Shown here piece after piece: positions 9,257-14,996 of a DNA stretch of 34,691 bases (position 1 is its first letter; each line of letters begins with the position of its first letter). The notes beneath the pieces are model-generated. The model searched no databases. It saw nothing but the letters and a program-made list of their open reading frames with translations, and was not told where the DNA came from. The position numbers and the translations under genes were made by a program. The DNA is from a bacterium (GTDB taxonomy: Bacteria > Myxococcota_A > UBA9160 > UBA6930). Location of the stretch: contig JAAETT010000581.1 in the NCBI GenBank assembly GCA_024228115.1, forward strand, positions 1-34,691, given 5' to 3'.

Positions 9257-9717
9257 ATTCCTTCCACCGGGCTCCGCGCATGAGGGGCTCGTCCGTGGCG
9301 CGACTCGTCACAGCGTCGACCGAACGGCTCCGAGCCGAGCACCGATCTGCCTCGGACCCACACAGGCCATCCGTTCACGCTTCCGTCGCTGACAGCTGGT
9401 CACGGTTCGCGTAGCCATTGCCATACTTCCCCTGGAAGCACCCGTACCGTTCAATCCGACCGACCCGCGAATCGGTTCGTCGCGGATTCACCGTCCCAAC
9501 CACCGCAGCGGACGGTCGTCCTTCTCGGTCAACAGATTCCGAGACAAACTGAACGGTGTTGCGCCTAGCACGCCCGAGAACCGGATCGGCACATCCGGTT
9601 TCTGCTCTACCCGAACAGCCTTCTCCCGATCCGGCGGGTGGGTGGCGGCTGCGGATCTGGGGGAGAGCGCAAGTGGGAGACCGAGGACGTGTAGGCCTTC
9701 GAACTGTAGGACTTCCC
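9257..9717. other. Intergenic stretch between divergent units
   Basis: About 460 bases between the HxlR promoter region and the sortase-target start. Frames on both strands lack domains and ribosome binding sites. The promoter of the sortase pair should lie here but no clear -35/-10 was found. Confidence 0.5.
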
Positions 9718-11820
9718 ATGATGGGCCTGCTCGGGGTGATGCTGCTGCTCGCCTCGTCGAGCGCTGCCCAGGATCTCGGGGCCACGATGAAGCCCGGCGA
9801 TGCGAAAGCGGGCACCTTGCTGCTTCGCACCGCGAAGGGTCTCAGCCCGGCTCCGACCGTCCATACCGATGTGCAGATCGAGGTCACGGGCATGATCGCT
9901 CGGACCACGGTCCAGCAACGTTTCCACAATCCGGGCGAGGAGTGGATCGAAGGCATCTACGTCTTCCCCCTGCCCGAACGTGCGGCGGTCGACACCCTGG
10001 CTCTGGTGGTCGGAGGCCGTTTGATCGTCGGCGAGATCCAGACCCGGGAGGAAGCGCGGGCAACCTACGAGAAAGCGAAAACCGAGGGGCGCAAGGCCTC
10101 CCTGCTGGAGCAGGAGCGCCCCAATCTCTTCACGACTTCGGTTGCTGGCATCGGCCCCGGAGAGGAGGTCCGGATCGGGATCGAGTATCAGCAGGATCTG
10201 CGATACGACCAGGGCCGCTTTGCGTTGCGCTTTCCGATGGTCGTCGGGCCACGCTCCATCCCGGGCTCCGCGCAAGTCGGCAGCGTCCGGGGAAACGGCT
10301 GGGCCGTCGGCACGAGTGCCGTGCCCGACGCGGCGCGCATCACCCCGCCCGTCGTGCCGCCCGGGAGCGGAAGCATGGATGCAAAGCTCAACCCGGTTCG
10401 CATCCGGGTCGAGCTCGATGCGGGAATGGAATTGGCGCGGATCCACAGCCCGTCTCACGGAGTTCGTGTCCGAAGCCTCGAAGGCACGCGTCATCTGGTA
10501 GAGCTCGCGGAACCGAGCGTGCCGGCCGATTCGGATTTCGTGTTGAACTGGCGGCCCGCACCGGTGGATGCACCGGTGGCCGCGATCTTCCACGAGGAGA
10601 AGGAAGGCGAGCACTACGCCCTGTTGATGATCATGCCGCCCGATCCGCAGCAAGGCAGCGACGAGAGCGTTCCGCGGGAGACGATCTTCGTGATCGACAC
10701 TTCCGGCTCGATGCATGGTGAATCGATGGAGCAGGCAAAGGGCGCTCTGCGTCTCGCGCTGGCACGGCTCCAGCCAGCGGATCGCTTCAACGTGATTGCC
10801 TTCGCAGACACCGCGAGGAAGCTCTTCCCCCGAGCGGACTACGCGCAGCCCACCCAGATCGACGCTGCCCGCTCGTGGGTCGACGGGCTCGCCGCCGAAG
10901 GAGGGACCGAGATGCTGACGGCCCTGCAGGCCGCGCTCGATCCCGCCGAGGAAGCTTCGCGCATACGACAGGTCATCTTCATCACGGATGGGGCCATCGG
11001 AGACGAAGCAAGGCTCTTCTCGGAGATCCGCAAGGGCCTCGGCCGCTCTCGTCTCTTCACCGTCGGAATCGGCTCGGCTCCGAATGCTCACTTCATGGCC
11101 CGGGCCGCCGAACTGGGGCGGGGAACGTCCACGCTCATCGGACAGCTGCACGAAGTGCAGACGAAGATGGCGGAGCTCTTCTCGAAGCTCGAAAGCCCCG
11201 TCCTCTACGATATCGAGGTGGGCTTCGGGGTTCGCCCGGTCGAAAACTGGCCGGAGCGGGTTCCCGATCTCTATCTCGGCGAGCCGATCGTCATCGTAGC
11301 CCGCCTGCCCGAACTCTCCGGTAGTTGGACCACCAAGGGCCGCCGCGATGGTGAGCCCTGGCAGGTGGAGCTCGCTCTCGAAGAGGGGCAACAGCACGCG
11401 GGTATCTCGCGGCTCTGGGCACGTCGGAAGATCGCTTCACTGACGGGTTCGCTCTACGACGGTGCCGATCCGAAGGCCGTGCGAAACGAGATCGTTGCGC
11501 TGGGCCTGCGACACCACCTGGTGACGCGGCATACCAGCCTGGTCGCAGTGGACGTCACGCCTACCGTGCCGGCCGGTGTCGCGCCCGATGCGCGCGCGCT
11601 CCCGACGAACCTGCCGAAGGGCTGGAGCTACGAGCACGTCTTCGGAGAGTTGCGCTCTCGCCAGCAGAATCGTCCCCCGCCGCCGAACGATGTGCTGCGG
11701 TTGACCCGGAACACTCAGCATCTGCCCCAGGGCGGCACCCCTGCTGCGTTGCTGGTGTGGATCGGTGTGGCCTGTCTGCTCACCGGGGCATGGCTCGCGC
11801 TTACACGTCGCGCGGCATGA
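9718..11820 (+). CDS. Sortase target protein with VIT and VWA domains (marine proteobacterial type)
   Basis: A 700-residue exported protein. The signal peptide MMGLLGVMLLLASSSAAQ is followed by a VIT (inter-alpha-trypsin) domain at about 20-150 with VQQRFHNPGEEWIEGIYVFPLP, then a VWA domain at about 310-490 with a full metal site: D327-x-S329-x-S331, T397 and D424. The C-terminus is a sorting-type signal: LPQGGT from residue 669, a hydrophobic helix and RRAA. This is the architecture of the single sortase substrate found beside class GN sortases in Gram-negative bacteria. The motif LPQGG departs from LPXTG. ATG 9718 is chosen because AGGA lies 7 bases upstream and the signal peptide starts there. 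It overlaps the sortase start by 4 bases. A cell-surface adhesive or binding role is inferred. Confidence 0.9.
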   Translation: MMGLLGVMLLLASSSAAQDLGATMKPGDAKAGTLLLRTAKGLSPAPTVHTDVQIEVTGMIARTTVQQRFHNPGEEWIEGIYVFPLPERAAVDTLALVVGGRLIVGEIQTREEARATYEKAKTEGRKASLLEQERPNLFTTSVAGIGPGEEVRIGIEYQQDLRYDQGRFALRFPMVVGPRSIPGSAQVGSVRGNGWAVGTSAVPDAARITPPVVPPGSGSMDAKLNPVRIRVELDAGMELARIHSPSHGVRVRSLEGTRHLVELAEPSVPADSDFVLNWRPAPVDAPVAAIFHEEKEGEHYALLMIMPPDPQQGSDESVPRETIFVIDTSGSMHGESMEQAKGALRLALARLQPADRFNVIAFADTARKLFPRADYAQPTQIDAARSWVDGLAAEGGTEMLTALQAALDPAEEASRIRQVIFITDGAIGDEARLFSEIRKGLGRSRLFTVGIGSAPNAHFMARAAELGRGTSTLIGQLHEVQTKMAELFSKLESPVLYDIEVGFGVRPVENWPERVPDLYLGEPIVIVARLPELSGSWTTKGRRDGEPWQVELALEEGQQHAGISRLWARRKIASLTGSLYDGADPKAVRNEIVALGLRHHLVTRHTSLVAVDVTPTVPAGVAPDARALPTNLPKGWSYEHVFGELRSRQQNRPPPPNDVLRLTRNTQHLPQGGTPAALLVWIGVACLLTGAWLALTRRAA

Positions 11821-12608
11821 ACAGGAAGTACGGGGCTCTCGCGCTCGTCGCGGTGGGTTGCGTCTGCCTCGCGCAGGCGGCATGGATCCCTTTCAAGGCC
11901 CGGCTGGCTCAACTCCTGTTGGCACACGCCTGGGAGCGCATCCAAGCGGAAGGCGTTGATGTTCGTCCTTGGCCATGGGCCGATACCCATCCCGTGGCAA
12001 AGCTCTCGGTGCCCCGCTTGGGGATCGAAAGAATGGTGTTGGCGGGTATAAGCGGGCGCACCCTGGCGTTCGGGCCCGGCCACTACGATGGCAGCGCGCA
12101 GCCCGGGACGGCAGACAATGTCGTCCTGGCCGGTCATCGGGATACCCACTTCGCCTTTCTTCGTGAGTTGGTGGCCGGCGACGAGATCCTTCTCGAGGCC
12201 AGCGGCGGCAGGCGTCAGCGCTTTCGCGTCGATGAGACCCGGGTGCTCCACGAGAGCCAGGCGTCGGTGATGGAGCCGACCGGGCGCGCCGAGTTGACCT
12301 TGATCACCTGCTTCCCATTCGATGCGGTGGTTCCAGGAGGCCCGCTGCGATACGTGGTTCGCGCGGTTCGGGCATCGCGCCCTCGTTCGACGGGGATCGG
12401 TTCGGCACCGATGAAGCAGAGACCGGCGGGTGGCGAGAGGGCCCCTCCATGGCCACCTCGAACCTCCCCTGACGGATCGCAGCGGACTGCGCCCGGCAGC
12501 CCGTCACCCGGAGGTCAGGCGGCGAATGCCCCCTGGAGATATTCGGCGATCTCCTGGAGAAGCTCCTTTCCCGCCGGCACGATCGGGCTCAGTTGGAAGA
12601 AGACATGA
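11817..12608 (+). CDS. Class GN sortase
   Basis: A membrane-anchored transpeptidase (263 residues as read). It has an N-terminal membrane segment (about 6-22), then the sortase barrel with catalytic H107 (LAGHRDTHF), C165 in TLITC and R178 in GGPLRYVVRAVR. It cleaves the LPXTG-like signal of its neighbour and transfers it to an acceptor; in Gram-negatives the acceptor is not well known. The start overlaps the target stop (ATGA), implying translational coupling. The normal family length ends near residue 187. Here the frame runs about 75 low-complexity residues further (rich in P, G, R and S) and overlaps the end of the convergent esterase gene by 94 bases, suggesting an ancestral stop was lost or shifted. 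Confidence 0.88.
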   Translation: MNRKYGALALVAVGCVCLAQAAWIPFKARLAQLLLAHAWERIQAEGVDVRPWPWADTHPVAKLSVPRLGIERMVLAGISGRTLAFGPGHYDGSAQPGTADNVVLAGHRDTHFAFLRELVAGDEILLEASGGRRQRFRVDETRVLHESQASVMEPTGRAELTLITCFPFDAVVPGGPLRYVVRAVRASRPRSTGIGSAPMKQRPAGGERAPPWPPRTSPDGSQRTAPGSPSPGGQAANAPWRYSAISWRSSFPAGTIGLSWKKT

Positions 12609-13465
12609 GGCATGCCTTCGTAGAGATGTCGCTCCACGCGGCCCCCCGCGGCTTCGAGGGCGTCGCCATATGCAGCGCCTTCGTCCCGTAGCGGGTCGAA
12701 TTCCGCGGTGACGAGCAATGCGGGAGGAAGCCCGGCGTGGGAGGCGGCCAGCAAGGGAGAGGCGTGGGGCTCCGTTCCGAGTTCCGGTGCATCTCCGAGG
12801 TAATGGCCGGTGAAGTAGTCCATCGATTCCTTCAAGAGGAAGGGCCCGGCGGCGTTCTCCAGCCTGGAAGGATGGAGATCGACGGAATCGAGCCGAAGAT
12901 CGACGGCCGGGTAGATGAGTACCTGGGCGCAGAGCGAGGGACCCTTCTCATCCCGGGCGCGAAGAGCGACGACCGCCGAAAGGTTGCCCCCGGCGCTGTC
13001 TCCCACGACGGCGATCCGCTGCGGGTCGCCACCGAACTCGCTCGCGTGCTCGCCCACCCAACACAACGCTGCAAAGGCATCGTCGCATGCCGCCGGGTAG
13101 CGATGCTCCGGCCCGCGGCGGTAGTCGACGGAGACGACCACCGCTCCCGCCCCGTTGGCGATCGCCCGGCACTCCTTGTCGTGGCTGTCCAGGTCGCCGA
13201 TCGTCCAGCCCCCGCCGTGGTAGAAGACGACCACTGGGAGCGACCCGTCCCCTTCCGGTCGGTAGCAGCGGATCGGAATTTCTCCCGCTGGCCCCGGGAT
13301 CTTGCGATCGTCCACCGAGGCGACGGCCTCGCCCGGGCCAAACAATCCGCCGAGCGCGAGATACCCCTCCCGCGCATCTTCAGGTGAGAGTTCGTGGGTC
13401 GGCTTGGCGTCCGGGTCCTGCGCCATGGCATCGACCAGGGCCTGGATCTCGGGAGCTAGCGGCAC
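12515..13465 (-). CDS. HSL-family alpha/beta-hydrolase esterase
   Basis: A 316-residue cytoplasmic carboxylesterase of the hormone-sensitive-lipase (bacterial family IV) type. The oxyanion motif HGGGW is at 83-87, the nucleophile S157 is in GDSAGG, the acid D257 is in AEFDPLRD and H287 is in GMPHVFF. Such enzymes cleave short- to medium-chain acyl esters. The start is GTG with GGAG upstream. It begins 46 bases after the kinase gene on the same strand and may share its transcript. No signal peptide is seen. Its 3' end overlaps the extended sortase frame. Confidence 0.9.
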   Translation of the reverse strand: MPLAPEIQALVDAMAQDPDAKPTHELSPEDAREGYLALGGLFGPGEAVASVDDRKIPGPAGEIPIRCYRPEGDGSLPVVVFYHGGGWTIGDLDSHDKECRAIANGAGAVVVSVDYRRGPEHRYPAACDDAFAALCWVGEHASEFGGDPQRIAVVGDSAGGNLSAVVALRARDEKGPSLCAQVLIYPAVDLRLDSVDLHPSRLENAAGPFLLKESMDYFTGHYLGDAPELGTEPHASPLLAASHAGLPPALLVTAEFDPLRDEGAAYGDALEAAGGRVERHLYEGMPHVFFQLSPIVPAGKELLQEIAEYLQGAFAA

Positions 13466-13511: not shown

Positions 13512-14996
13512 TCAGTCGCCGCGCTTCTCGTCGATCGGCGGGATCTTCGACAACCGGTAGGCCATGTAACGGATCACGCGAAGGGCCATGGCCGGATTGC
13601 AGGTGAGGAAACGCTCCAGCTCGGCGGCGTTCAGTACGCAGGCCCAGACTTCCCCGGCCGCTTTCATCGTGGCGGTACGTGGGATCGATGCCAAGGTGGC
13701 GACCTCGCCGAGAAAGCTGCCCTCTCGGGAAACCCGCGTCAGTTCCTTGCCGTTGCGGCTCACCACCACTGATCCCTGGAGGAGCAGCAGGGCGTAGTAG
13801 GATTTCTCGCCCTCGGCGCACATCACTTCGCCGTCTCCGAACTTCACAAAGTAACCGCGGAAGCCGCGACGCCGACAGATCGAGATGAGCAGAGGGTCGA
13901 CGAGTCGTTCGATCAGTCCGTCGATGTCGGAATCCGAGACATTCGAGCGGTGAGCGGCTGCAAGCGTATCCGCACCCCAATCGGCTCCGTTGCCCTTGGC
14001 CTGAACGCGGGCGAGCACTTCGGCCACGCTGCCGGGCCGCAGGGCCGGATCCAGGTGGAGGAGGCTCATGATCACCTCTTCCAGCTCCGGCGACAGGTTG
14101 AGCCGGAATTCGGAGAGCGGTGGAAGACCGTAGATGGCGTTGCCGTCGTCCTCGCGGACGAGATCGCAGCGCTCCGCCAGGTTGAGGCCCGTGGCCATCG
14201 CCCAGGCCGTGGCACCGACGCTCCATAGGTCGGTACGCAGGTCGTAGCGATCGAAGCGTTCCTGGCGCTGCTCCGGCGCCTGGTAGCCACGGCTTCCCAC
14301 GCTGAACGGAAGCAGGCCGCGTTCGATTCGCGACGCCTGGGAGACACCGAAATCCGTCAGGACGTAGCCGCCGTTTCCATCGAGGAGCACGTTGGCCGGT
14401 TTGATGTCGAGGTGCAGGAGCGAAGCGCGGTGAGCGACATCCAACGCGGAGAGTAGATCTGCCAGCAAACGCCAGATGGCTTCTTCTTCTACGGCGCCCT
14501 GGAGCGGCATGACATCCCGCAGGCTGCCAGAGGGGAAGTTCTCCATCACCACGAACGCGGTGTCGCCCTCGAGGTTCCAATCGTAGACCTTCGGGATGCG
14601 GTCGTGTTCGAGGGCGAGCATGGCGGAGAGCTCGCGCTTCAAGAGTTCCGACGCCTTGCCGCGCCGGGAGCCGAGGATCTTCAGCGCCACGGATTCCGGA
14701 GGGCAATCATCCCTGCGTGGATCCCGGTCGAGGCAGCGCGCCAGGAAGACCGAACCGAACGCTCCGCGTCCGAGCTTGCGGTAGAGCTTGTATCGAAAGT
14801 GCCCGCGGAGTTCCGTGCCGAAACCGGGTGCCGCGGGAGCAGGTGATTCGACCGGCGGCGATCCTGGATCTGCCGGAAGCGATCCCGGATCTGCCGGGCC
14901 GGATTCAGGCGCTTCGCGTGCCGGTGCCTGCGCTCCAGGCGCACTCGAACTGCTGGCCAACTCGGTCGTGGCGTCGTCGGTGTGGGGGCGATCCAC
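13512..14996 (-). CDS. Ser/Thr protein kinase with C-terminal cyclic-nucleotide-binding domain
   Basis: A 494-residue soluble kinase. A Pro/Ala/Ser-rich N-terminal tail (about 12-58, with ADPGS repeats) precedes the kinase domain (about 66-330): glycine loop GRGAFGSV (76-83), K106, catalytic loop HLDIKPAN with D197 and N202, DFG at 215-217, and APE at 240-242. The usual HRD arginine is leucine (HLD, 195-197), making it a non-RD kinase that may not need activation-loop phosphorylation. A cAMP/cGMP-type domain follows (about 380-485), with the phosphate-binding cassette [10 protein letters not shown]...PRTATMKA retaining E431 and R440. Control by a cyclic nucleotide is inferred. The kinase-first order is the reverse of eukaryotic PKG. 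It is divergent from purC, 136 bases apart. Confidence 0.9.

Follow-up and report, generated by a model that had tools for sequence, protein, structure and literature searches.

The sorting signals that accompany class GN sortases carry, with a single exception among the pairs gathered here, either threonine or glycine at P1, and the choice between the two covaries with two pocket positions of the partner sortase, residues 83 and 105. This family-wide switch was uncovered by a check proposed in a sequence-only reading of one locus, namely alignment of target C-termini and a search for covariation between an LPQGG motif and sortase pocket residues. Glycine at P1 was found to go with sortase residues 105 and 83, the top two columns after correction for phylogeny. 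The locus itself proved genuine but ordinary, belonging to a known family, and the novelty claimed for its motif is not upheld.

Class GN (marine proteobacterial) sortases (TIGR03784) and their targets (TIGR03788) were described together with the VIT/VWA family (PMC3237569). The window, the whole stretch of 34,691 nucleotides analyzed here, comes from an uncultured, metagenome-assembled Myxococcota lineage and, unlike the described hosts, does not belong to the Proteobacteria in the current sense. As in the described systems, both proteins score above the family cut-offs, the two genes are adjacent, and a single target bears a tripartite C-terminal signal. The target is encoded on the plus strand at 9673–11820, within a reading frame open from 9556 to 11820. 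GTG at 9673 is the preferred start, being preceded by GGGGGAG, lengthening the signal peptide, and adding basic residues to it; ATG at 9718, the start adopted in the sequence-only reading, is also possible. The TIGR03788 score is 751.3 bits (cut-off 551.65) over residues 48–698. A signal-peptide core, MMGLLGVMLLLASSSAA (9718–9768, plus strand), probably followed by cleavage before QD, precedes a VIT domain (9862–10188; PF08487, 117.9 bits, residues 49–157 of the protein P0001) and a VWA domain with a DTSGSM metal-site motif (10681–11130; PF13768 and PF13519, residues 322–471).

The C-terminal tail of the target, HLPQGGTPAALLVWIGVACLLTGAWLALTRRAA, has all the elements of a TIGR03788-type protein with an adjoining sortase gene: the sorting motif LPQGGT (P4 to P2′, 11722–11739) aligned with the LPQTAT of 199 pairs and preceded by His, a hydrophobic membrane segment of about 20 residues (11743–11802), and the basic tail TRRAA before the stop (11803–11817), or HLPQGGT-TM-RR in short. 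Scored alone, the 45-residue tail reaches 17.0 bits with the LPXTG anchor model (cut-off 15.9). Glycine occupies the place of the LPXTG threonine, as the sequence-only reading had observed.

The paired glycines recall GlyGly-CTERM, another tripartite tail that members of the VIT/VWA family can carry (PMC3237569) and that belongs with rhombosortase, a rhomboid enzyme unrelated to sortase. Two rhombosortases in the window's genome (L130 and L131, on contigs C171 and C61) exceed the TIGR03902 cut-off, at 98.8 and 90.9 versus 84 bits, and GlyGly-CTERM tails are documented on bacterial VIT/VWA homologues (PMC3237569). We nevertheless regard it as very improbable that the LPQGG tail serves as a GlyGly-CTERM-like signal for a rhombosortase rather than for the neighboring sortase. 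The tail exceeds the LPXTG anchor cut-off and gives no GlyGly-CTERM hit with the NCBIfam models at E values up to 10, on which ground that assignment was rejected; the class GN sortase gene overlaps the target gene; and relatives with LPQGAT or LPRGAT, which lack the glycine pair, adjoin the same kind of sortase.

The sortase gene (263 codons, 11817–12608, plus strand) starts with the ATG at 11817 that overlaps the target stop TGA (11818–11820) in the sequence ATGA. Its product scores 207.7 bits with TIGR03784 (cut-off 158.25) and also matches Pfam Sortase. The catalytic His107 (12135–12137), Cys165 in LTLITC (12309–12311), and Arg178 (12348–12350) are invariant in both alignments (A1 and A2). 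An AlphaFold2 model (mean pLDDT 86) displays the sortase β-barrel together with an N-terminal helix at residues 3–45, the membrane-anchor feature. All 50 Foldseek matches listed for this model are sortases, and the best PDB match among them is 2LN7, B. anthracis SrtD. The nearest named record, Deltaproteobacteria bacterium Meg19_02_Bin_150 (L050), encodes a sortase 92% identical to that of the window. Past the conserved domain, the frame continues through 12375–12608 (about 75 codons), an extension without counterpart in the relatives inspected (L007 and L009) that overlaps a convergent hydrolase gene (12515–13465, minus strand) by 94 bases; it may reflect a lost stop or an assembly error. Beyond the hydrolase, a Ser/Thr protein kinase fused to a cyclic-nucleotide-binding domain is encoded at 13512–14996 on the minus strand.

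A profile search of the whole 6.4 Mb genome for three families (target, sortase, and rhombosortase) retrieved one target and one sortase above the cut-offs. The pairing of a class GN sortase with a single adjacent VIT/VWA protein stands as first described. Of the phylum's classes, only that of the window yielded class GN sortases (22/379 genomes). Two genomes (G013 and G042) hold VIT/VWA homologues below the TIGR03788 cut-off (L017 and L018), and no class GN sortase was found in them.

Class D sortases (NF033746 and NF058671, LPxTATN-specific) offer the closest solved fold (2LN7) and a similar LPxTA-T motif, but they are Gram-positive enzymes with Thr at P1. The window's sortase falls below the cut-offs of both models (89.6 versus 165 bits for NF033746, by which class D identity was rejected, and 97.7 versus 140 bits for NF058671). 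A second, class-D-like sortase occurs in other families of the window's order (L042, L043, L044, L045, and L047), scoring 140–143 bits with NF058671 in two scanned loci; none was found in the window's genome. In 5/5 loci with a readable upstream gene, this sortase gene lies directly 3′ of one for an 80–100 aa protein that combines a lipidation signal with a sorting signal: a lipobox signal peptide is followed by a stalk rich in Pro, Glu, and Val, by LPKTAS or LPETAG, and then by a membrane helix with a basic tail. Such a protein could be a sortase-made tether between outer membrane and wall. The class E enzyme SrtE1 (LAXTG) resembles the present case in that its signal departs from LPXTG at one position and the departure is matched by a subsite residue (PMC5148588), but there the change lies at P3 (Pro to Ala) and is read by a β3/β4 tyrosine.

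The frequency of glycine at P1 was assessed with sortase/target pairs gathered from the window's class, 80 named genome contigs of many phyla, plasmids, and groups around named Gammaproteobacteria, Alphaproteobacteria, Acidobacteriota, Betaproteobacteria, and Nitrospira genomes. Motifs were extracted by an HMM-anchored procedure, which replaced a first extraction of 87 pairs. The 199 distinct pairs, from many phyla, comprise 142 with Thr at P1, 56 with Gly, and 1 with Ser; glycine accounted for 52/151 of the pairs used for trees, and 48 later pairs raised the total. The family consensus is LPQTAT-P and not LPXTG, the reference against which the motif had been judged unusual. LPQGG in the typical family consensus had been named in advance as evidence against the proposal, and this is half the case: the commonest motif in 156 distinct tails is LPQTAT (31), followed by LPQGGT (13), LPQGAT (10), and LPRTAT (10). 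The maximum-likelihood sortase tree requires at least 25 T/G switches at P1; a second, built with the tested columns left out, requires 28. The exact motif LPQGGT recurs within the window's genus, in another family of the same order (f4), and in Acidobacteriota. Given these counts, switches, and occurrences, glycine is a common alternative rather than an oddity of one lineage. The window differs from the TIGR03784/TIGR03788 majority in bearing Gly rather than Thr at P1, but with Gly in 56/199 pairs, Thr does not define the TIGR03788 family.

To identify sortase positions that accompany this choice, every frequent column state in an alignment of 151 sortases (431 states) was tested for association with P1 = Gly. 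Residue 83 ranks first in the raw Fisher test (1.9e-9). Pagel's test of correlated evolution, applied to the 151 pairs, puts residue 105 first (Ser, LRT 30.7) and residue 83 second (Leu, LRT 22.0); after correction for 431 tests with 4 degrees of freedom, 105 is still significant and 83 alone is borderline. With all 199 pairs, the LRTs are 27.6 for non-Leu at 83, 19.9 for Ser/Thr at 105, and 33.3 for either Gly-type change, and for each of these three tests 0/40 null simulations reached the observed value. The second tree, free of the tested columns, gives 30.3 (83) and 17.4 (105). Counting the one Ser system with the Thr systems, Met or Ile at 83 accompanies Thr in 3 pairs and Gly in 23, and Leu accompanies Thr in 140 and Gly in 33; Ser or Thr at 105 divides 80 to 8 and Gly or Asn 3 to 16. 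Exceptions are 3 Thr systems with M83 and 8 Gly systems with Ser/Thr at 105. Ala at 105 is also associated with a non-Ala P1′.

The 48 later pairs served as a held-out set, thin on glycine, with only 4 Gly pairs, of which Nitrospirota supplied 3. The hypothesis on residue 83 was written before the set was gathered, and that on residue 105 was formed after gathering, before its column there was looked at. Ser or Thr at 105 occurs in 31/44 Thr and 0/4 Gly pairs; non-Leu at 83 occurs in 0/44 Thr and 1/4 Gly pairs, which is consistent with the hypothesis and goes no further.

The positions of both residues fit a role in reading P1. Residue 105 (12129–12131) lies two before the catalytic His107, at the place of A140 in spySrtA and of residue 118 in SaSrtA, which published work assigns to the P1 subsite. 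In spySrtA, the methyl of the P1 Thr faces A140 and the P4 Leu faces the β6–β7 loop (PMC9520033); directed evolution of SaSrtA traced specificity at motif position 4 to residues 104, 118, and 182 (PMC9126251). Residue 83 (12063–12065), an S3/S1 pocket position, is the Leu of a conserved L-x-x-G stretch that precedes the GPGH loop; by hand alignment it corresponds to SaSrtA L97 and falls close to SrtE1 Leu221, a residue packing on P3 (PMC5148588). Residues 83 and 105 may set P1 specificity in class GN sortases.

The same data might be read as neutral drift of a loosely read motif, in which the sortase is blind to P1 and the pocket association stems from shared ancestry. The number of P1 switches, the occurrence of both forms with L83/A105 enzymes, and the scarcity of switches on strongly supported branches all suit such drift; when only the starred branches are kept, 3 independent switches are left, too few for a sign test. 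Yet P1 is confined to Thr, Gly, and one Ser in the 199 pairs analyzed, and the model-based tests are strong on two trees, with both of the top columns being pocket columns. We therefore judge drift to be unlikely.

Which residue is P1 also bears on these associations. In a shifted register, the Thr two residues downstream (LPQ[T/G][A/G]T) would be the true P1, cleavage would follow it, and the T/G place would be a neutral spacer. That Thr, less variable than the P1 place, is present in 142/156 distinct tails, and spySrtA acting on a substrate with Leu at P1′ shows alternative cleavage one residue on (PMC10763551). The constancy is, however, overstated, since the motif search rewarded T or G at P1 together with T at P2′; tails left out by the search often lack the downstream Thr (LPQTAA, LPQTAN, IPKTAL, FPRTAL, and MPQTGL), and most of those with a readable motif have Thr at P1. 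The T/G place, moreover, covaries with residues assigned to P1/P3 by class A structures and by directed evolution, and an aromatic P4 is associated with residue 146 of the β6/β7 loop (LRT 15.4, 0/40 nulls), as expected for the standard register. Aromatic P4 shows no association with residues 83 or 105, nor P1 with residues 146 or 78. P3 against residue 78 is a fitting but weak association (LRT 10.5, reached by 1/40 nulls). On this evidence a shifted register is distinctly improbable, and the standard register is used below.

The window's own enzyme has neither Gly-type pocket change (83, 105). It carries L83 and A105, a pair found with Thr in 52 and with Gly in 18 of the 199 pairs; a relative of the same family (L005) shares L83/A105 and has an LPQTAT target, and one of the same genus (L007) has M83. 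Because L83/A105 goes with both forms, LPQGG requires no enzyme change in the window, and because its sortase has no Gly-type change, the window adds nothing to the covariation. The earlier suggestion that cleavage specificity differs in this lineage is thereby divided: P1 does covary with the pocket across the family, but glycine is too widespread, and the window's pocket too unchanged, for the difference to belong to this lineage.

We consider it likely that the locus pairs a dedicated class GN sortase with a single target of its own, with glycine as a standard P1 state. The target would be exported by Sec and retained in the inner membrane through its C-terminal helix, and the membrane-anchored sortase would cut between the two glycines (LPQG|G), the acyl-enzyme then being resolved by some nucleophile of the Gram-negative envelope. 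Glycine would be one of two standard states of the family, Ser/Thr at 105 being read mostly with Thr, Met/Ile at 83 or Gly/Asn at 105 mostly with Gly, and the window's L83/A105 with either. The analysis establishes the gene pair, its family membership, the conserved catalytic residues, the two-state motif, and the covariation, whereas cleavage, the bond cut, the acceptor, and the control of specificity by the two positions are inferred; we found no biochemical work on class GN sortases in the open literature. Among PdsO/PdsR/PdsS-type neighbors, an OmpA/PdsO-like gene lies directly upstream of the target in 16/62 relatives with room for one (L123:804–1637, L076:1133–1852, L070:817–1734, and 13 more); no such gene adjoins the target in the window.

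For the family as a whole, the analysis provides what is, to our knowledge, the first map drawn from sequence of signal recognition by class GN sortases, with P1 assigned to residues 83 and 105 and P4 to the β6/β7 loop, in what appears to be the same register as that of the well-studied class A enzymes. Whether class GN sortases form a natural two-state system, in which enzyme and single target have switched together between Thr and Gly many times by way of a permissive L83/A105 state, seems to us an evenly balanced question. If they do, natural sortases that accept glycine at P1 exist, and the map predicts enzymes cutting after glycine, which would be useful for protein ligation.
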